This document shows, one piece after another, positions 2,744-42,541 of a stretch of 42,541 nucleotides of DNA. Both the position numbers and the translations under genes were made by a program. Source of the stretch: a virus. Position 1 is the first letter of the stretch. Each line of letters begins with the position of its first letter. The notes beneath the pieces were generated by a model. The model did not search any database, was not told the DNA's origin, and saw only the letters and a program-made list of their open reading frames with translations. Where the stretch lies: positions 1 to 42,541 of IMG/VR virus record IMGVR_UViG_3300042934_000099; one strand, written 5' to 3'.

Positions 2744-5700
2744 CTAGGTTGTGGTAATGAGTACATTAGGAATAATTGTCCTCGATTGTGCTGTTAAATT
2801 TTTAATTGACATTTGATTAGTTTTTGTAGTATCCGTTGGGTCTAATATTTTTTTTACTCCAAACTTAACATATTGTTCATCATAACTTCCAAAGCTAGCA
2901 GCTTCTAAATGTGATAGTGTTGTATACACCATTGTAACTTGTCCAATACTTGGTGTCACTGATAATGTTGAAGTATTTAGTTGCCAAATAAAATCTAATG
3001 CTACTGGTATTATATTTAATGCGCTTAAATCTGTTTTTAATTGTGTCATACTTAAATTTGTAAAATAAGTCTGTAAATCTGTATTGGAATTTGAACCAGT
3101 CCAACTTTGTGTTATATCTCCAGTAAATTTATGCCAACCTGTTCCATTGTGATATAACCAATTTGTACCATTGTCAAATGTTGTCAGCGTTTTGATTGAT
3201 GTATTAGTTGGTGTTGTAAATGGCATTGTTAATGAAGAAATTGTATCTATTGTAGTTAAACTATAATTGCTATTCCCAGTTGTTTGTGTATATAAAGGAA
3301 CATTAATTGTGTTATAAGAAATCCCAAATGCACTAGTTGGTATTGAATAATTAGATGTTGTCAATGCTATTCCGTTCATTATTTTTAATTCATCTACATT
3401 CCCTGTCATATAATATGGAGCTGTTCCTGTTTTTTGAACTCCAATGTAACAAGGATATACATCAGAGCTAACTAAAGAAGAAGTTGTAAATGTGCCAGTG
3501 AGTGTCGTAGATTGTAAAACTCCATCTTTAAATATATACATATTAGAACCTTTTCTTACAATTCTAATGTTATACCAATTATTAGCAGATACTATTCCAT
3601 CAGATGTGACAAATTTATATTGCAGTGTACTAGACAAAACTCTTTGTACTATTAAACCTCCTGTTGATGATAAATAAATCAACAGGTAATGATCATTATT
3701 TGTTGAATAAACATCTAGGATTCCATATTGATTTGTGCTAGGTAATGAATTCACACGAAATCTAAAATCTATTGTAAAATCATTTATCCCAAAATTAAAA
3801 TCCGAACTTGCTGGAATAGTTAAATAACTACTACCATTAAAATAAGCTGAACCATTTCCGAATACTTTATTGGTTGTATCTAATGTAACCCCAGAATTAG
3901 TAATTGTATGTCCTAATTCATCTTTAAATGTTCCTTCGTCCATGTGTAATAAAGCTTTAGTATAAATATCTAATTGTGCTTTATTATTCCCAATTAGTAT
4001 TTTTGCACTATCTTGCAAAGAATATTTGCTAACGTCAGAAAAATCTAAATGAGTATCTGTTACAGTAGTTCCTGCAATAACTTCTTGTATTCCCATTAAG
4101 AATTTATCTGCTGTACACGGAGGATATTCAAAAATTGTTTCTGTCCCTGGTGCTATTGTTGCTGGTGCACCACTTGCTTTTAAAATATTTCCATCTGTTG
4201 CAACTATGCCAGCTATATTAAAGTCTGCATGAGTATAACCACTTCCACTTGCTACAATTGGTCTGCCTGTTGCATAACTAGAATTGTCAACTATATGGTT
4301 ATTTATACTAGATGCATCACTACTACTTCCACCAGCTACGTTTACTATTGTGGTGTCATTTATGGAATCATCACTTAAACTAACTCCACCAATGAACTGC
4401 AAGTTGCTTCTTTGTATAAATGTTGTGATAGAATCTTTTATTGTATGTCCTCCACCAGTTCCGCCATATTTATGCCAAGCTGTGCCATCATAGACATTAA
4501 TAGACCTATCTGTACTTAATAAATACATTTCGTTAATTGATATATTTGTAGTTGGTAAAGTGTCTACTTGATAATAATCTTTTTTGCCCATATCAACTTT
4601 ATATCTTACATTAGATTTAGTAAAATATAAGTCTGTTCCATCAAACTCGAATTCTCCATTAACAAGTCCTGCTGATATCGCACCAGATGGTAATAAACTT
4701 GCATCTCTTAATTTAATACTAGCCATTTGTAAAGCAAGTGGACCATAACCACCGTTTAGTGTGCTCGCTCCACCTACACCAACATTAGCATATAAAATTG
4801 CTACAAAACTAAAAGCACCTGCACCACTTACTATCGGGCTAGAAGTAGTATTTACAATAACACTTGCTAAAGTAGACATTCCACTTGAATTAGTATTCAA
4901 AACTGGAACACTAGTTGTAGTCATAGACAAATTACCAAATGTAGTTGTTGCGGTATCCGAAACTGTAACCTGTCCTATAATTTGGTCCGCTGTATATGAT
5001 ACATTCAAAAAACCACCAATAGCTAAACATACATTATTTAAAGCATCTACCTTGCAAGAAACTCTGTTCAAAATAAAAGAACCCTTCGCAGTCGAATTAC
5101 TGTAAAAGGCTCTTGCGCTTGTTCCACTGGATGCAACATTAACTGTGCCATCTTCAAAAAGAATTTTAGAACTTGCATTTGTATTTGACCAATTAATAGC
5201 ATCCCCACCGCTCGAATATACGCTAGAACCAATTAATTGAAAGTTTTGCAAGTTTGTTCCTTGAAATGATAATGTATTGCCCGAATTAGAATTAAATAAT
5301 ATATTTTCGCAAATTACTGTTCCATTAAAATCTATAATATGATTTCCTGTTATAGTAGTTGTAAATTTAGTAGCACAAGTTAAATAAACATTAGCTTTAA
5401 ATGTTAAGTTTTCTGTATAATTCCCTGGGAAAATAAAAATGGCAGTTCCGCTTGTAGCAGTATCTATAGCTTTTTGAACTGTTAAATATGGCTTGTTGGC
5501 ACTACCGTCATTGTTATTGTCACCATTTTTACCTACATATATATAATTAGTTGGTTTTACATTTACTATTCCATCTAGTTTTGAAGCATATTCCTTGGTC
5601 ATTAATCCATCAATAGTTGATGTTGCTTTTGGAATTGCTTCTAAGCCCACATCTTCCCATTCAGTTCCATTCCATCTGTAATAAGTTGGAGCATTGTTTA

Positions 5701-6238
5701 AACCTACTTCAACTGCAACCGTCCAGCCTTTTTGTGGTGTTGGATAAGTTGTGGATAAATCTGAATAAGCGTGTACGCCTTCTTTCCAATCTAATCCAGA
5801 TACTACAGCAGCTATTTTATTATCTGTTTCTGCTTGAGTGTATTTGTCATCCCAAATAGGCTTATTTGTTGTTATGATATTATTTATTGTATTTTCTGCA
5901 TTCTGTGCTCTAGAAATTTCATTATCTATTTCATTTTGCAAAGAATTTTCTTTTAACTTTGCTCTATTAGATTCACTAGCTATGTCGGCTGTTAATCCTG
6001 TTTCAGCATTTTGTGCTCTAGTCATTTCATTAGTTGTAGCTTGTTCCATATTAGAAAGTCTATTAGATAAAGTTAGTTGACCATTTCTAGCATTTTCAAC
6101 TTCTGTTCGTAAATCTTTATCTTTTAAATTTCCTGCTAGCCCTGTCCTTGCTTCTCCTGCTACTACCATTACAACTTTATCAGTGTCTTGAGGTATTGTT
6201 GTAGGAAAGTTTTGCATATAAGTAAAAGTATTAGGCAA
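2744..6238 (-). CDS. Large tail fibre with beta-helix and LamG-like domains
   Basis: A 1164-residue virion protein with a TTG start 7 bases after an AAGGAGG site. Residues 1-140 are coiled-coil repeats (SNRLSNMEQATTNEMTRAQN) typical of trimeric fibre shafts. About residues 225-500 look like a pectate-lyase-type beta-helix: a DUF1565-like entry (YIYVGKNGDNNNDGSANKPY) followed by repeated short strands. About residues 735-950 form a concanavalin-A/LamG-like fold with GNGSAYFNGSSYLTIP, FTIDFRFR and GNVDELKIMNG. The C-terminal 200 residues contain TTGNSNYSLTTIDTISSLT, a module that recurs in the small gene at 29829. Host-surface glycan recognition is the likely role, inferred from the folds. Confidence 0.85.
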   Translation of the reverse strand: MPNTFTYMQNFPTTIPQDTDKVVMVVAGEARTGLAGNLKDKDLRTEVENARNGQLTLSNRLSNMEQATTNEMTRAQNAETGLTADIASESNRAKLKENSLQNEIDNEISRAQNAENTINNIITTNKPIWDDKYTQAETDNKIAAVVSGLDWKEGVHAYSDLSTTYPTPQKGWTVAVEVGLNNAPTYYRWNGTEWEDVGLEAIPKATSTIDGLMTKEYASKLDGIVNVKPTNYIYVGKNGDNNNDGSANKPYLTVQKAIDTATSGTAIFIFPGNYTENLTFKANVYLTCATKFTTTITGNHIIDFNGTVICENILFNSNSGNTLSFQGTNLQNFQLIGSSVYSSGGDAINWSNTNASSKILFEDGTVNVASSGTSARAFYSNSTAKGSFILNRVSCKVDALNNVCLAIGGFLNVSYTADQIIGQVTVSDTATTTFGNLSMTTTSVPVLNTNSSGMSTLASVIVNTTSSPIVSGAGAFSFVAILYANVGVGGASTLNGGYGPLALQMASIKLRDASLLPSGAISAGLVNGEFEFDGTDLYFTKSNVRYKVDMGKKDYYQVDTLPTTNISINEMYLLSTDRSINVYDGTAWHKYGGTGGGHTIKDSITTFIQRSNLQFIGGVSLSDDSINDTTIVNVAGGSSSDASSINNHIVDNSSYATGRPIVASGSGYTHADFNIAGIVATDGNILKASGAPATIAPGTETIFEYPPCTADKFLMGIQEVIAGTTVTDTHLDFSDVSKYSLQDSAKILIGNNKAQLDIYTKALLHMDEGTFKDELGHTITNSGVTLDTTNKVFGNGSAYFNGSSYLTIPASSDFNFGINDFTIDFRFRVNSLPSTNQYGILDVYSTNNDHYLLIYLSSTGGLIVQRVLSSTLQYKFVTSDGIVSANNWYNIRIVRKGSNMYIFKDGVLQSTTLTGTFTTSSLVSSDVYPCYIGVQKTGTAPYYMTGNVDELKIMNGIALTTSNYSIPTSAFGISYNTINVPLYTQTTGNSNYSLTTIDTISSLTMPFTTPTNTSIKTLTTFDNGTNWLYHNGTGWHKFTGDITQSWTGSNSNTDLQTYFTNLSMTQLKTDLSALNIIPVALDFIWQLNTSTLSVTPSIGQVTMVYTTLSHLEAASFGSYDEQYVKFGVKKILDPTDTTKTNQMSIKNLTAQSRTIIPNVLITTT
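3222..3298 (-). repeat. Fibre copy of a short module shared with 29950-30026
   Basis: This 77-base stretch encodes TTGNSNYSLTTIDTISSLTM in the large fibre. It aligns without gaps to 29950-30026, in the same orientation, with roughly 70% identical bases by eye and 16 of 22 identical residues in the encoded peptide. The two copies are 27 kb apart. See the finding on the small ORF upstream of the terminase. Confidence 0.6.
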
Positions 6239-6250
6239 GTTAACACCTCC

Positions 6251-6988
6251 TTAAATTACTATTTTGTTACTGTTTTGGTCTAAAACATAATTACCATTTT
6301 CATCTAGCATATAATTTATTAACAATGGCTGGGATGATAAAGCTAATGTTTCAGTCTTAATTTGGCTTACAACTATAGAAGAATAATTATTTAATTGCAT
6401 TTTTTCTGATTGGTCAAAATCCATTGTCCAAGTTTCTGTTTTACATACATTAACAACCATAGCGTGGTAAATATCAAAATCTATTTTAGAACGTCCAATG
6501 TAATTTACTCTAACGCCCTCAGGCTTGGGAATAATATAATTATGTTGGATTAATTGCTGTTGGATTAAGTCTACATATCCAGTTATATAAGCATTAAAAC
6601 TCATATCCTGGTTATCTTGTAGTTGTAAATCTAAATCATTGTCATTTCCAAATATGTTATCCCAAATTGTATACATACTTTGAATGGTTCCATCCCAATT
6701 ATTCATAGCTACTTTAGTTTTCAAAACAAGTCTGTAATATTCATCCTCTAGAATTGGACTATATCCATACATTGGTTGAAAAGGTAATTCTCTTTTTCTT
6801 CCTATTATTTGCCCTAACATATCAAGCTGATTCCCGATTGCATAGTCTAAATCAAAATTTACATCTAAAGATTTAACTACATTATAAGCACTGTCTATTT
6901 TATTTAAATGTGTGCTTAACCAGCTTATAAATTTTGGTTTGTCTCTATGCTGTGAGGTTATATTATCTAAATATTTATCTATTGCCAT
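6251..6988 (-). CDS. Baseplate protein, DUF2612 family
   Basis: A 245-residue protein. The longer reading frame extends to 7042, but that extension overlaps the upstream baseplate J gene; the ATG at 6988 (MAIDKYLDNITSQHRDKPK) follows an AGGAGG site and is the better start. NQLDMLGQIIGRKRELPF, then EDEYYRLVLKTKVAMNNWDG and an aromatic-rich C-terminal half, is the DUF2612 pattern. This family follows baseplate J in simple contractile tails and is thought to link the wedge to the fibres. Confidence 0.85.
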   Translation of the reverse strand: MAIDKYLDNITSQHRDKPKFISWLSTHLNKIDSAYNVVKSLDVNFDLDYAIGNQLDMLGQIIGRKRELPFQPMYGYSPILEDEYYRLVLKTKVAMNNWDGTIQSMYTIWDNIFGNDNDLDLQLQDNQDMSFNAYITGYVDLIQQQLIQHNYIIPKPEGVRVNYIGRSKIDFDIYHAMVVNVCKTETWTMDFDQSEKMQLNNYSSIVVSQIKTETLALSSQPLLINYMLDENGNYVLDQNSNKIVI

Positions 6989-6999
6989 AATACAACCTC

Positions 7000-8172
7000 C
7001 TAAACTACATTTGCAGTTATATAGTTTATATTGCCTCTGCAAACTTCATTAAAATTTATAGATATATCTGTAGTACCTTGGCTTTGACTATGTTTAGCGG
7101 CTGTTATGCTAGTAATAGAAAAACTAGGATTGCTTAAGTCTGACATAGCACTCAAAGCTGTTCCCCATAATGCTGATAGTGTTAAATCAGCCCCAATTTT
7201 CATAGAGTTTAAATAAGCTTGTAATTTAGTTTTAATTGTATCTGTAGTAGCTGTTGTATATCCTTCTAGAGACTTAATATTAATAGTTACATCTATATCG
7301 ATATACGTAGGTCTATAAAATCTAATTGGCGTTATTTCACCTTTAGAATCAGTTATATCTATAGATACATTCCCATTGGCATAACAGCCTATTCCTTTAT
7401 GACTAAATATAGCCTGTGCAATATCTTCATTTGTTCCATTTTCTACTATCGCAGTTATGGAATGTGGTGGTAATCCTCTTGAATCTGTTTGCCCTGTGTC
7501 GTTTTCATATACTTGTGACCTTGTAACTCCTTCGAGTTGTGCTATTGCTCCAATTGTACCTTCTAACATTGTATTGCTTGGTTGCGCTGTGCTTTTTGAT
7601 TGTCTTATTCTTAATGCGCTATCAGTTTCTATATAAGAACCTAGAGTTGCATATCCAGAGTTATAAACTCCATTCCAACCATAAGTTTGATTATATATAC
7701 CGATTAAGTCTCCAGGATTAGCAACAATAGGTCCAGCAACTTCACAGGTTGCAATTACATCAATTGAGCCAGTATTTGGAATAGTTATACTTGGTAGTAA
7801 ATCCCACTTAATATTATCTTTCCCGTATATAATTCCATTATTTATTATAGTTCCAGCTGTTCCAGTTACGGTTACTGTACACGTGCTATAAGTCTCGGAT
7901 TTTCTTTTTATTCCATTTATTTTGACAATACTATCGAGTGCAGCTTTGATGGCTGTATTGGGGGCTCTGTTGTTATAGACTAATTGTGCAACTTGCAAAA
8001 CATCATACATATATTCAGAAATTGTTGCTATCCATTGGTAATCTTGACTATCATTTTCTAAATATATATCTTGTCCGAATATATTTTTACATTCTGTAAT
8101 TAATTGATCTCTTAAATTGTAATATGTGTCAATGTGTAACCCAGAATCGTCTATATAAGGCGGTATATACAA
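7000..8172 (-). CDS. Baseplate J-like wedge protein
   Basis: A 390-residue protein of the Mu gp47/baseplate J family, which forms the baseplate wedge together with the gp25-like protein encoded just upstream. Visible hallmarks are the N-terminal IWATISEYMYDVLQ-like helix (here QWIATISEYMYDVLQVAQLV), a central beta domain opening with TVTVTGTAGTIINNG, and SALRIRQ followed by the AQLEGVTRSQVYEN segment. Length is normal for the family. The order gp25-like, J-like, DUF2612, fibre is the standard wedge-to-fibre order. Confidence 0.9.
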   Translation of the reverse strand: MYIPPYIDDSGLHIDTYYNLRDQLITECKNIFGQDIYLENDSQDYQWIATISEYMYDVLQVAQLVYNNRAPNTAIKAALDSIVKINGIKRKSETYSTCTVTVTGTAGTIINNGIIYGKDNIKWDLLPSITIPNTGSIDVIATCEVAGPIVANPGDLIGIYNQTYGWNGVYNSGYATLGSYIETDSALRIRQSKSTAQPSNTMLEGTIGAIAQLEGVTRSQVYENDTGQTDSRGLPPHSITAIVENGTNEDIAQAIFSHKGIGCYANGNVSIDITDSKGEITPIRFYRPTYIDIDVTINIKSLEGYTTATTDTIKTKLQAYLNSMKIGADLTLSALWGTALSAMSDLSNPSFSITSITAAKHSQSQGTTDISINFNEVCRGNINYITANVV

Positions 8173-36060: not shown

Positions 36061-36465
36061 CTAAAATGGTGAGTCACCATCGTCGATTGGTGTTATATCT
36101 TCTTCAAAATTCCCACCAGTAAAAGTATCTGAATTAGGTACATTATTATTTGATTTGCTTAAGAATTGTACCTCTGTAGCTAAAACCTCTGTTACATAAC
36201 GTTTAGTTCCATCTTTTGCATCGTATGACCTAGTTTGTATTCTTCCGCTAATAGCCATTTGACTTCCTTTAGTCATATAATTAGCTGTGCTTTCTGCTTG
36301 TTTGCCCCATATTACAACTGGTACAAAGTCAGCTTCTTTCTGTCCTGTCTTAGTATTGTATTTATCTACTGCTAGGGTTATTGATGTTACACTTGCCCCA
36401 CTTCCTGGAGTAAATTTAAGTTCGGGATCTTTTGTTAATCTTCCTATAAGTACAACTTTATTCAT
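36061..36465 (-). CDS. ssb: Single-stranded DNA binding protein
   Basis: A 134-residue SSB. The ATG at 36465 (MNKVVLIGRLTKDPELKFTP) has AAAGGAG with a 10-base gap; the ATG three codons earlier is only 2 bases from it. The OB fold continues with ITLAVDKYNTKTGQKEADFV, VVIWGKQAESTANYMTKGSQ and MAISGRIQTRSYDAKDG. The tail is short and ends DDGDSPF, the acidic D-D-x-x-F-type tip that recruits replication partners. It works with the helicase encoded at the right edge. Confidence 0.95.
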   Translation of the reverse strand: MNKVVLIGRLTKDPELKFTPGSGASVTSITLAVDKYNTKTGQKEADFVPVVIWGKQAESTANYMTKGSQMAISGRIQTRSYDAKDGTKRYVTEVLATEVQFLSKSNNNVPNSDTFTGGNFEEDITPIDDGDSPF

Positions 36466-36625
36466 TATCTGCATTCTCCTTTGTTTCTTTTAATATTGCA
36501 CATAAACTACCTTGATTTGTTTCGCTGTCTATCACATCGCAAGCTCTATCTAAAGGGCAATCTTCACAACATATTGGTTTAAAAATATTTAATAATTTCC
36601 CTGCTATTTCTTTCTTACTCTCCAT
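36458..36625 (-). CDS. Small Cys-rich protein before ssb
   Basis: A 55-residue protein: MESKKEIAGKLLNIFKPICC, then EDCPLDRACDVIDSETNQGS, with five Cys. The CC-x2-C-x5-C arrangement plus a later Cys suggests a metal site. It overlaps the upstream gene by 11 bases and ssb by 8, and its start and the ssb start share a nearly identical 20-base translation signal. Confidence 0.65.
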   Translation of the reverse strand: MESKKEIAGKLLNIFKPICCEDCPLDRACDVIDSETNQGSLCAILKETKENADNE

Positions 36626-36938
36626 TTTCTGCATTCTCCTTTTCTTCTTTTTCTGCCTTAACTACTATTACTGGATATTCTGTTATTGCCTTTATATCCT
36701 CGTGTATTTGGTTTAATTTATCCTTAATGATAACTATATCGTCATTGGTCTTTAAAATGTGCTGTGGAACAAATTTCAAAGCATCTTCAAACTTTGTGCA
36801 ATAGGCAACTGGTTTTATAATTTCATTTCCTACATTTTCTGCTTTTGTAAGTCTACTTTCTTGAACAATACCTTTCTTACTAACTATAAATTGTAAATTA
36901 TCACTTGTTATTAAATATTCTCCTATACTAATTTTCAT
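36615..36938 (-). CDS. Hypothetical early protein
   Basis: A 107-residue protein: MKISIGEYLITSDNLQFIVS, KPVAYCTKFEDALKFVPQHI, then a helical end with Lys/Glu repeats. This resembles a common phage family that opens (I-x-x-x-Y-x-I-T-S-D-x-x-Q-(F/Y)-I) and has Y-x-x-x-(L/F)-E-x-AL; function unknown. It overlaps the small Cys-rich gene by 11 bases. Confidence 0.65.
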   Translation of the reverse strand: MKISIGEYLITSDNLQFIVSKKGIVQESRLTKAENVGNEIIKPVAYCTKFEDALKFVPQHILKTNDDIVIIKDKLNQIHEDIKAITEYPVIVVKAEKEEKENAENGE

Positions 36939-36941
36939 TTA

Positions 36942-37820
36942 TTAAATTCCTTCTTCCTTGATTAAATTTATAAATTCTTCTGTTGCTGTTGCGATTTGAG
37001 TTATATTAGTTGCTTGTTCTTGGATTGTAATTGCATTTTGTTCCATTGATTGAGTCATTTCTTCTATGTCTCTATTTATATCTGTAATACGTTCAATTCG
37101 AGTAATATTGCTTTGTTTCAAAAACTTACTATCTTCATTTGCTTTACTAGCTTTTTCTAAAGTAATTGTTGTCATTGATTGAATATCTTTGATAATATTC
37201 TTAATTTCAGTGCTTGAATTATTTGCTCTTGATGCTAAATTCTTAACTTCTGTAGCTACAACCGCAAATCCTTTTCCGGATTCTCCTGCTCTTGCAGCTT
37301 CTATACTTGCATTTAGTGATAATAAATTAGTTTGATCTGAAATATCTTTGATTGTTTCAACTATCTTATTTATATCTTGGACCATATTATTTAGTTCATT
37401 TACGCTATCAAATGTATTTGTAATATTCATTCTAAAATCATTCATTATAGGTCCATTTTCTAAAGCTGATTCATAAGCTAAATTTACCTTTTCACTTATA
37501 TGAACCATAGTTGCAGCCATTTCCTCATTATTGGCTGACATTTCCTCTGATGAACTCGCTTGATTAGTAATATTGTTACTTATATTTTCTACGCCTTTTA
37601 AAAAATATTCATTTGTCTTTTTGACTTGGTCAATGTATTTCTTAAATTCCTTTTCTTTCTCTTCAAGCTTTTGTTTATAGTCTTTTGATTCTTTCATTAA
37701 ATCCTTTGCTGTATCTTTTGTTATGTCTATATCTATTCTTAATCCTTCATTCTCAATTTCTAATTTCTTTATGTCTTCTTCATATCTAGCTAACGCCTCT
37801 TTTCTTATAATTTTATACAT
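36942..37820 (-). CDS. Cytoplasmic methyl-accepting chemotaxis-type signalling protein
   Basis: A 292-residue protein without signal peptide or membrane helix. Residues 10-75 are a charged coiled coil. About 85-292 are an MCP signalling domain with the hairpin tip [20 protein letters not shown], then [20 protein letters not shown] and [12 protein letters not shown]. This tip is the segment that docks CheW and CheA in bacterial chemoreceptors. The N-terminal sensory part is missing or reduced to the coil. It lies in the early region between ssb-linked genes and a DUF1064 nuclease, with the same direction and spacing as its neighbours. Interaction with the host array is an inference. Confidence 0.9.
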
Positions 37821-37841
37821 TGTAATTCCTCCCTTTATTTT

Positions 37842-38015
37842 TTATTTACCCTTCTTTATTAATTTCCCTTTCATACAAAATCCATTTATTGCTCTTTTCC
37901 CACATCCGCCATAGCATATCTTTTTCTTTTCACAATACCTGCAACCTACCCATGTTCTTCCTAATACATCTTTAAAAAATTTAATTTTGCTTGTTTTATT
38001 ATGCTTTATATTCAT
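37842..38015 (-). CDS. Small Cys-rich basic protein
   Basis: A 57-residue protein with CRYCEKKKICYGGCGKRAI and a further Cys near the end. The C-x2-C-x5-C-x3-C spacing suggests an iron-sulphur or zinc site. I start at the ATG at 38015, directly after the DUF1064 stop; a longer frame to 38063 overlaps that gene. No family recognised. Confidence 0.6.
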   Translation of the reverse strand: MNIKHNKTSKIKFFKDVLGRTWVGCRYCEKKKICYGGCGKRAINGFCMKGKLIKKGK

Positions 38016-38016
38016 T

Positions 38017-38436
38017 TCATTGTTTACCTTTCTTTGCATTTCTTCTTTTCTTTTGAAGTTCATAGAAATCTATAAATCCATATTGATCTCCATATTTCAA
38101 ACTTCTAGCTACAATGCTTAATTTAAAATCTCTATATTTCCAATGAAACAATTTAATTCTTAACTCTCCTTGCTGAGTTGTCATTCCTTTTACATCTATA
38201 TATTCAATAGAATTATCATTATGGTATATTTTAAAATCTGGCGTGTATGTGATGGCCCTATAAGTTTTGTTTTGCTTTTTAAATCCCTCTATAAGGGTAA
38301 ATGTTGGCTGTAATTCAAAGCACTTTATTTCGCCTCTAGCTTGTCTTAATTTTAATGACTCATAATAATGCGCTTCATCTTTACTATCAAAAGCTATGCC
38401 ATCTATTGTTATCTTTTGACTATTATATTTGCTCAT
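38017..38436 (-). CDS. DUF1064 nuclease-like protein
   Basis: A 139-residue protein of the DUF1064 family: MSKYNSQKITIDGIAFDSKD with EAHYYESLKLRQARGEIKCF, then YTPDFKIYHNDNSIEYIDVK and HWKYRDFKLSI. The FDSKxEAxYY, TPDF and (I/V)DVK motifs place it in the PD-(D/E)XK group and give the usual catalytic E, D and (D/E)xK residues. Proposed role: Holliday-junction or recombination nuclease during replication. Confidence 0.85.
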   Translation of the reverse strand: MSKYNSQKITIDGIAFDSKDEAHYYESLKLRQARGEIKCFELQPTFTLIEGFKKQNKTYRAITYTPDFKIYHNDNSIEYIDVKGMTTQQGELRIKLFHWKYRDFKLSIVARSLKYGDQYGFIDFYELQKKRRNAKKGKQ

Positions 38437-39958: not shown

Positions 39959-40306
39959 TTAAGAATTTTTATACTCAACTTTTAACCATGCCAATTTTGA
40001 TCTAAGAATTTCAATTTCTGACCTGAGATTATTAATAGCATCTAATGCTACAAAATAAGAACTTTCTGCAACATCTCTTTCCAGCCTTAATTGTGATACT
40101 TCTTCATTCCCTTTAGCCAATTCCATCACTAAAGTAGTAGGATATTTTTCTAACTTTAATTTTAAAATTTCCTGTGCTTGTCTTACTCTATAATTCTTTT
40201 CTGTTTGTGCCTTTTTAAGTCCTAAGGTTTTTAATTCCGTATTCCCTCTTGTTAATGCTTGTCTACATTGGTCCAGTTGATTAAATACTAATTGTGGATT
40301 GCTCAT
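39959..40306 (-). CDS. Conserved coiled-coil phage protein
   Basis: A 115-residue helical protein: YRVRQAQEILKLKLEKYPTT, then LVMELAKGNEEVSQLRLERD, and SSYFVALDAINNLRSEIEIL. The E-KYP-x-T-L-(V/I)-x-(E/D)-L-x-KGN-x-x-V-xxLRL-x-RD pattern is conserved in early-region proteins of Firmicute phages. Function is not known to me; the long helices suggest oligomerisation. Confidence 0.7.
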   Translation of the reverse strand: MSNPQLVFNQLDQCRQALTRGNTELKTLGLKKAQTEKNYRVRQAQEILKLKLEKYPTTLVMELAKGNEEVSQLRLERDVAESSYFVALDAINNLRSEIEILRSKLAWLKVEYKNS

Positions 40307-40791
40307 ATTGCTTCTACCTCTTTCTTCTTTACAGATTGTATAAGCTCTTTGCCCTTTTTACCTCTTTTAAACCTATAATAAATAGTATTTTGTTTTAATC
40401 CGCTAATATCTGACCATTTTGAAATTGTATGTTTTACTCCATTTATTTCTAAAATATTATTATTAGTTCTGTTATTTTGTTGTTCTTTATTAGTTATCCA
40501 TCTACAATTGCTTGGTTCATAGTTCCCATTAACATTTTTTCTGTCTATTGTTAAGTTTTCTTTATAACCATTAGATAATGACCATGCTTTAAAATTATTA
40601 AACCCATTTTCTCCTAGCCATTCATCGCAAATCTTTATTCCTCTCTCACCATAATTTTTATATTTTTTATTTTTTGTATAATAACATCTACATAACCACA
40701 TTGAAGTTTTTCTTTTTGAGTTAGATTTTTCTTTTTTAATTATTATCAACCTTCCAAATCTTTCTCCTATAGAACAGTTAGTTTTACTCAT
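40303..40791 (-). CDS. Free-standing HNH homing-type endonuclease, internally shortened
   Basis: A 162-residue protein. IGERFGRLIIIKKEKSNSKR opens the usual phage HNH family; NYGERGIKICDEWLG, SNGYKENLTIDRKNVNGNYE and PSNCRWITNKEQQNN carry the nuclease core; ISKWSDISGLKQNTIYYRFK is a C-terminal HTH of NUMOD type. Relatives have about 45 more residues between the WLCxC motif and the RCYNxxNKxYKNYG motif; here MWLCRC runs directly into YYTKNKKYKNYG. The catalytic segment is intact by eye. It is not inside a recognisable intron. Confidence 0.85.
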   Translation of the reverse strand: MSKTNCSIGERFGRLIIIKKEKSNSKRKTSMWLCRCYYTKNKKYKNYGERGIKICDEWLGENGFNNFKAWSLSNGYKENLTIDRKNVNGNYEPSNCRWITNKEQQNNRTNNNILEINGVKHTISKWSDISGLKQNTIYYRFKRGKKGKELIQSVKKKEVEAI

Positions 40792-41437: not shown

Positions 41438-42127
41438 TTACCTCCCTACAAAATCAAGATTTTTAATTTTTTGCATTTTATCTGAATAAAAGAATTTTAA
41501 TGTTCCAGTTTTTCCGTTACGTTGCTTTGCTATTATCCATTCCATTATGTTTTTATCTTCTGTTTCCTTGTTGTAATATTCATCACGATATGCAAATACT
41601 ATTAAGTCTGCATCTTGTTCTATGTTCCCGCTTTCTCTCAAGTCTGACATCATCGGTCTTTTATCTCCTCTAAGTTCTACACTTCTTGATAGCTGGCATA
41701 GTAGAATAACATTTATATCTATTTCTTTTGCTAGTAATTTAAGTTGCCTTGTTATTTCTCCAATATCTACGCTTCTATTCCCTGTAGTTGGTATATCCAT
41801 TAATGTAAGATGATCTATAATTAATACATCTAAACCATAGGCTTGTTTTATTGACTTGGCTTTAGCTTTTATAGTTAAAATGTTTTGGTAGCTGCTACAA
41901 TCAGTAAAAATATTATTTCTTTGTGCTAATTCACTAAATGTAATAGCTATTTTTTCAAATTCTCCACTAGATAATTTCCCAGTTTGAAGTTTTTGCGATT
42001 CTATATCACTCATATAAGATAATCTTCTAACTCCAAGCTGTTCTTCTGTCATTTCCATTTCTACTATGGCAACTTTTTTATTTTCTTTGGCTAGTCCATC
42101 TGCCATATTTAAAGCCATAAGCGTTTT
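41438..42127 (-). CDS. dnaB: Replicative DNA helicase (DnaB-type), 3' exon
   Basis: This exon encodes the C-terminal 229 residues of a RecA-fold helicase. Seen are the end of Walker A (KTLMALNMADGLA), the catalytic Glu strand VAIVEMEMTEEQLGVRR, Walker B LDVLIIDHLTLM, motif H3 ILLCQLSRSVELRGDKRP with MSDLRESGNIEQDADLIV, and H4 WIIAKQRNGKTGTLKFFY. The reading frame could be started at ATG 42139, but that ATG lies in the P9 stem of a group I intron. I infer that the exon begins with AAA (Lys of GKT) at 42127. The 5' exon is outside the window. Confidence 0.88.
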   Translation of the reverse strand, partial: KTLMALNMADGLAKENKKVAIVEMEMTEEQLGVRRLSYMSDIESQKLQTGKLSSGEFEKIAITFSELAQRNNIFTDCSSYQNILTIKAKAKSIKQAYGLDVLIIDHLTLMDIPTTGNRSVDIGEITRQLKLLAKEIDINVILLCQLSRSVELRGDKRPMMSDLRESGNIEQDADLIVFAYRDEYYNKETEDKNIMEWIIAKQRNGKTGTLKFFYSDKMQKIKNLDFVGR

Positions 42128-42541
42128 CGTATAATCCATATTTTCATATGGTACAGACTATCTCTTAATCCTTTAAGGATTCCTTGCGCTTCGAACGGTA
42201 GCTTATCTTCCGTCCTACGAGTTAAACTCTAGTCGTTACACCTTCCTATTTCTAGGCTTGGCACGGTATTAGCATATTGCATCATTATAATTTAGATATT
42301 TGCCCATCTATCTTTGCTTCTAACTCTTTCAATTGTTCTATGATGAACATTATATATTTGAGCTAAAACATTTGAAGATAATTTGCTTTTTCTTATATCC
42401 AACACTTTAGACTTATCAAGTTTAATATTTGATTTAAGCTGATTATTTTCTTGCTGCGACATAAGTTCTAAATTATTCAAATTATTATCTCTTTTAACTA
42501 AGTTTTTATGGTTTATAGTCATATTTTCAGGAATATCACCT
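42128..42541 (-). ncRNA. Group I intron, 3' part, inserted in the helicase P-loop
   Basis: Minus-strand elements in order are: HNH ORF; GCTAATACCGTGCCAAGCC-like P3/P6 region (about 42255-42275); P7 5' strand GACTA (42230-42234); an ACGG/CCGT helix (P8 or P7.1 type); an AATCC/GGATT hairpin (42173-42187 region); P7 3' strand TAGTC (42156-42160); and P9 CCATAT-GAAA-ATATGG (42136-42151), a 6-bp stem with a GNRA loop. The last intron base would be G at 42128. The 5' half (P1, P2) lies beyond the edge. Confidence 0.85.
42292..42541 (-). CDS. Intron-encoded HNH homing endonuclease, 5' end cut by window edge
   Basis: Read from the edge, the frame starts GDIPENMTINHKNLVKRDNN, then LNNLELMSQQENNQ: the second half of an HNH nuclease motif (G-x-I-P-x-x-x-x-x-N-H-K-x...D-N-x-x-NLE-x-x-S-x-x-EN). 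A C-terminal HTH of homing-endonuclease type follows (VLDIRKSKLSSNVLAQIYNV, HHRTIERVRSKDRW). The ATG at 42522 is internal to the HNH motif and is not the start. It lies wholly inside the intron and would promote its spread. Confidence 0.85.
   Translation of the reverse strand, partial: GDIPENMTINHKNLVKRDNNLNNLELMSQQENNQLKSNIKLDKSKVLDIRKSKLSSNVLAQIYNVHHRTIERVRSKDRWANI

Follow-up and report, generated by a model that had tools for sequence, protein, structure and literature searches.

Soluble chemoreceptors function in the chemotaxis of bacteria other than the host considered here (PMC6829392, PMC7542364). In Rhodobacter sphaeroides, TlpT and TlpC, which we liken to the phage protein described below on the basis of their published description, are soluble receptors that form cytoplasmic clusters together with CheA/CheW and are able to override the cluster at the membrane; unlike the phage gene, the genes for these proteins are located with or near the host chemotaxis genes, are essential for host chemotaxis and have no phage context (PMC6829392). 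YfmS of Bacillus subtilis, also denoted a soluble chemoreceptor (PMC7542364), is a chromosomal orphan receptor represented by 286 residues in a YfmS-CheW model (PDB 9a72), whereas the protein analyzed here is encoded in a phage replication block. TM14 of Thermotoga maritima (PDB 3g67, 3g6b) is likewise cytoplasmic, has no membrane span and consists of the hairpin only, but its gene belongs to a bacterial chromosome. The hairpin fold and the soluble, sensorless format are already known from TM14, and YfmS probably shares this format; what is new is the carriage by a phage of a sensorless receptor with a swapped N-terminal cassette.

Receptor genes are present in jumbo-phage records as well, but the encoded proteins are about 560-610 aa long and contain membrane spans and a sensor region. 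The jumbo Vibrio phage vB_VmeM-Yong XC31 carries an MCP-like gene for a 610-aa protein (L209:1726-3558) that is annotated as a hypothetical protein, and a jumbo-sized, 394-kb IMG/VR contig (L039, IMGVR_UViG_3300021400_002728) carries a two-span, full-length MCP gene (4924-6609) directly upstream of an SSB-like gene (6711-7157), a neighbor that it has in common with the receptor gene described here. The best PHROG match of the latter, PHROG 8572 (1.5e-39, residues 37-286), is a profile of 533 positions, twice the length of the phage receptor, with no function assigned; thus, phage proteins resembling MCPs had been grouped into a family before, although without a name. A search of the open-access literature, with most subscription papers outside its scope, retrieved no study of a phage-encoded chemoreceptor. 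Phages are known to reprogram transcription, quorum sensing and pili of their hosts; if the reading proposed below is correct, a single small soluble protein would make it possible to test viral control over bacterial movement, and chemoreceptor-array biology would gain a useful natural receptor that is sensorless and has an exchangeable input.

The window, that is, the whole stretch of 42,541 nucleotides analyzed here, is a linear and possibly incomplete IMG/VR virus record (42.5 kb, 30.7% G+C) with terminase, portal, head, sheath and baseplate genes; we take it to be a contractile-tailed phage that probably infects clostridia (see below for the host). The receptor gene (36942..37820, minus strand) extends over 292 codons from an ATG at 37820 to a stop codon ending at 36942, and a probable ribosome-binding site, GGGAGG, can be read from the sequence 7 nt upstream of the ATG (37828..37833, minus strand). 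The gene is internal to, and tightly packed within, the replication/recombination block of the phage, with all the neighbors listed here on the minus strand. Only 3 nt past the receptor gene lies a gene for a 107-aa protein with a weak match to PHROG 154 (36615..36938), and the same side includes the single-strand DNA-binding protein, SSB (36061..36474; Pfam 6.1e-34, PHROG 44). Upstream are a small Cys-rich ORF with CxxC pairs (37842..38063), for which no Pfam or PHROG match was found, and a DUF1064/Holliday-junction-resolvase-type gene (38017..38436; Pfam 2.3e-46, PHROG 190 4.3e-48). The tight spacing suggests that the receptor gene belongs to an operon, and its position points to early expression; a promoter consensus scan gave scores close to the shuffle mean. 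No tyrosine or serine recombinase, integrase or ParA-type ATPase was detected in this linear, possibly incomplete record.

The 292-aa product was identified as a soluble, sensorless MCP signalling protein on the basis of the ORF, Pfam, AlphaFold, Foldseek and dN/dS analyses. Residues 130-283 match the Pfam MCPsignal domain (PF00015; 125.7 bits with a cut-off of 34.6, E 2.3e-36), and this match was recovered again when the whole record was searched; coiled-coil profiles, such as SMC, also give weak matches. A Kyte-Doolittle scan revealed no hydrophobic segment in this protein or in its phage homologues, hence no membrane span, and MCPsignal is the sole Pfam domain, with no recognised sensor domain, ligand-binding domain or HAMP. 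The protein accordingly shows none of the features of a membrane chemoreceptor of the Tsr/McpB type (spans, ligand-binding domain, HAMP) and all those of a sensorless soluble chemoreceptor of the TM14 type (hairpin, no span, no sensor domain), although its N-terminal coil may still have some function of its own. The AlphaFold2 model (45-row alignment) consists of two helices, residues 2-177 and 179-289, with a mean pLDDT of 91.9 and a pTM of 0.57, a value not unusual for long flexible hairpins, so that the receptor is predicted to be a bare antiparallel two-helix signalling hairpin. In a Foldseek comparison with the PDB, the best matches of this model are chemoreceptor signalling domains, including 3g67 (TM-score 0.83 of target length, about 21% identity) and the YfmS-CheW model (30% identity in the structural match); given that the matched TM14 chain comprises 213 aa, the N-terminal coil of the phage protein is longer. 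A BFVD fold search with the same model yielded generic coiled coils only, at 8-19% identity.

The hairpin tip (residues 157-196; 37233..37352, minus strand), the region through which known receptors touch CheA, CheW and neighboring receptors, was aligned with 55 bacterial receptors drawn from searches of clostridial genomes. All receptor positions that are invariant in this set are kept in the phage protein, namely N165, L167, N170, A171, E174, A175, A176, A178, G179, G182, G184, F185, V188, A189, L195 and A196. The single unusual tip residue is T190, which is D or E in 82% of the 55 receptors and is common to all three phage copies of the gene (see below). Over the tip, identity to the bacterial receptors averages 78% for the phage protein, compared with 80% among the receptors themselves; the corresponding values for the arms are 15-19% and 19-24%. 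By this measure, the tip of the phage protein resembles receptor tips as closely as these resemble each other. An initial sequence-only reading of the window had described a soluble signalling domain that lacked the membrane and ligand-binding parts, retained an almost perfectly preserved CheA/CheW-contacting tip and was located in the early region of a phage. The Pfam match and the hydrophobicity scan bear out the former two statements, and the gene is indeed flanked by the resolvase-type gene and the SSB of the replication/recombination block; as for the tip, that reading was to be abandoned if the contact residues differed in a careful alignment, and the alignment revealed no such difference.

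The receptor gene is present in two further IMG/VR phage records, in the same slot as in the window. The L003 protein (IMGVR_UViG_3300048929_000275) is 97-98% identical to the window protein over residues 62-292 and 33% identical over residues 1-61, whereas the L006 protein (IMGVR_UViG_3300030019_000550) is 38-42% identical, with 82% identity over residues 157-196 and about 35% in the arms. In all three records, a Holliday-junction-resolvase-type gene is located above the receptor gene, and one or two small ORFs separate the latter from the SSB below. The type of resolvase varies, with DUF1064 in the window and RecU in L006; the L003 protein in this position, for which no Pfam match was found, looks RuvC-like by inspection. 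The small Cys-rich ORF is 94% identical to its L003 counterpart, and the 107-aa gene adjoins the receptor gene in L003 too, whereas in the related clostridial locus L150 it is present and the receptor is absent. The receptor gene thus behaves as an accessory gene (moron), being internal to a phage block and absent from a relative with the same flank; moreover, it was found at only three of the 39 related phage SSB loci (the window, L003 and L006) and is therefore dispensable. In the parts compared, the L006 record has little in common with the structural module of the window, mainly a tail-fibre protein at 62% identity, which implies that the receptor gene either persisted or moved among different phages.

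Whole-protein and alignment patterns, run against viral contigs to find further members of the family, recovered L003 and L006 alone. The loci retrieved by tip patterns (about 110, repeat loci counted; the tip scan covered 80 of its 169 matches) carry mostly two-span receptors. Phage matches to the receptor in GenBank are partial, and most of them lack annotation or look bacterial; one of these, in Microcystis MaAM05, is a 508-aa protein without obvious spans that adjoins metabolic genes and is possibly a contamination. The three phage proteins group together in the phylogenetic tree (clade support 0.993), and given the weak support of the neighboring branches (0.68-0.85), we name no donor.

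Comparison of the window with L003 over residues 62-292 gives a dS of 0.30, a dN of 0.011 and a dN/dS of 0.036, lower than the dN/dS of the 107-aa gene (0.20) or the SSB (0.11); judging from these substitution rates, the signalling part of the receptor is under strong purifying selection. In the same pair of records, a block of about 200 bp that starts slightly before the preceding small ORF ends and runs to approximately codon 56 is unalignable at the nucleotide level, and both its flanks are well conserved. This block (37655..37853, minus strand) comprises the ribosome-binding site and codons 1 to ~56, which encode the N-terminal coil, and would represent an exchangeable cassette; the simplest reading of this one sequence pair is a swap by recombination.

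Because no relative emerged from a megablast search of the window against phages, homologues of the tail sheath in clostridial genomes were used to place the host. Six genomes of a single family encode proteins that are 54-76% identical to the sheath; on the basis of G+C content and receptor content, we take this family to be Clostridiaceae. The two closest host-like genomes contain 53 and 57 MCP matches (a few of these being fragments of one gene), and each of the six encodes 3-11 CheW-domain matches. Receptors of the 36H-like and of the 44H-like type occur in these genomes, alongside many receptors of 200-390 aa that appear to be soluble. Thus, partners for the phage protein exist in such hosts, and the abundance of small soluble receptors implies that it could act through or beside these. 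Among about 600 clostridial genomes (391 Clostridia and 207 from the family of the sheath relatives, partly overlapping), with the best few candidates scored per genome, we detected no close copy of this receptor, the best chromosomal relatives being ~32-37% identical.

A motif scan using the methylation consensus as quoted in PMC6829392 identified two 10-residue motifs in the N-helix (residues 88-104; 37509..37559, minus strand), one an exact match and the other matching at 9 of 10 positions, with Glu pairs 87 and 80 residues ahead of the tip Glu. The same scan found no strict motif in the C-helix of the window protein; the L006 homologue has four strict motifs, two per helix. The Glu pairs at these methylation-type sites suggest that host CheR/CheB could still tune the phage receptor. 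The length class is less clear-cut. With 36H and 44H profiles built for this analysis, which separate host receptors by 45-180 bits, the window protein scores 105.9 and 123.9 bits, respectively, and the phage proteins fall between the profiles, with differences of 13-30 bits. The heptad count gives arms of 126 residues in 36H and 154 in 44H receptors; the C-helix ends 112 residues past the tip in the window protein and 108 in L006, so that the phage arm (112 residues) is shorter than either. Assignment to the 36H class, suggested by a gapless HMM alignment to the N-arm of Escherichia coli Tsr, was dropped because the host 36H/44H control gave equivocal scores. Because the protein fits neither length class tested, it cannot be taken for granted that it mixes freely into membrane arrays, and given that receptors differing in length are reported to form no mixed units (PMC9855816), docking in the host membrane arrays is not guaranteed; it may instead associate with host soluble receptors, belong to a cytoplasmic cluster of its own or act by interference.

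We consider it reasonably likely, from the sequence features described above, that the phage receptor docks by its tip on host CheA/CheW and actively biases or jams the Che pathway. The protein would be made early, dimerise, associate through its tip and join host CheA/CheW complexes; being sensorless, it would fix these complexes in one state or displace host receptors, and the resulting shift in CheA output would, in the course of infection or lysogeny, alter the swimming bias or some other output under Che control. As the protein is shorter than membrane receptors, there could be room for it beneath the membrane array, or else it could join the soluble receptors of the host; tuning by CheR/CheB could occur at the Glu pairs, and the swappable N-terminal coil would set the partner, location or signalling state. 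A stronger version, in which a constant hairpin on CheA/CheW is combined with an exchangeable coil that senses a phage- or infection-specific signal and the virus thereby drives host movement rather than just silencing it, appears tentative and somewhat unlikely.

The sequence-only reading had proposed interference with, or retuning of, host chemotaxis, which is still the leading hypothesis and is partly supported, by the domain, the tip, the format and the genomic position. Its alternative, a coiled coil reused for another assembly task, could take the form of a phage scaffold, for example, a replication/recombination organiser that does not use the Che pathway. The SSB and resolvase-type genes that accompany the receptor in all three records, the poor fit to host length classes and the weak matches to profiles such as SMC are compatible with such a role, but conservation between the window protein and L006 peaks at the tip, a pattern of working receptors that a scaffold does not need, and the methylation-type motifs persist. 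Coiled-coil reuse is weakened by the fact that conservation centers on the tip that faces CheA/CheW rather than extending along the coil, and we rate the scaffold as distinctly improbable. A sensorless protein with an intact tip could also act purely by titration, soaking up CheW/CheA or capping receptor trimers and thus turning chemotaxis off with no signalling of its own; Aer2so of Shewanella, a foreign soluble receptor, lowers swimming of E. coli, perhaps by competition (PMC9855816). We find this unlikely: the conserved arms (97-98% identity and a dN/dS of 0.036 between the window and L003) and the methylation-type motifs exceed the needs of a tip-only decoy and, given more than 50 receptors and several CheW copies in host-like genomes, titration would require high expression. 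Finally, many other MCP records in IMG/VR are ordinary two-span receptors resembling host DNA, so a bacterial gene present by chance, through contamination, misassembly or as a functionless passenger, has to be considered. This origin is extremely improbable here: the gene is internal, packed among phage genes with 3 nt to the next one, and has chromosomal relatives that are ~32-37% identical at most; its occurrence in the same slot in two independent records and its low dN/dS indicate that it is not there by chance.

Elsewhere in the replication block, a probable group I intron (42135-42375, minus strand) was detected in a local search with the Rfam model Intron_gpI (E 7e-7, below the gathering score), together with an HNH endonuclease ORF (42292-42522); the intron apparently splits the DnaB helicase gene (DnaB ORF, 41438-42139), and a nearby stretch of 41 bp (42230-42270) is shared, without mismatch, with an ncRNA of Streptococcus phage MissG1. 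A second HNH endonuclease ORF of this block (40303-40791, minus strand; PHROG 3377, 1.6e-46) is probably another mobile element.
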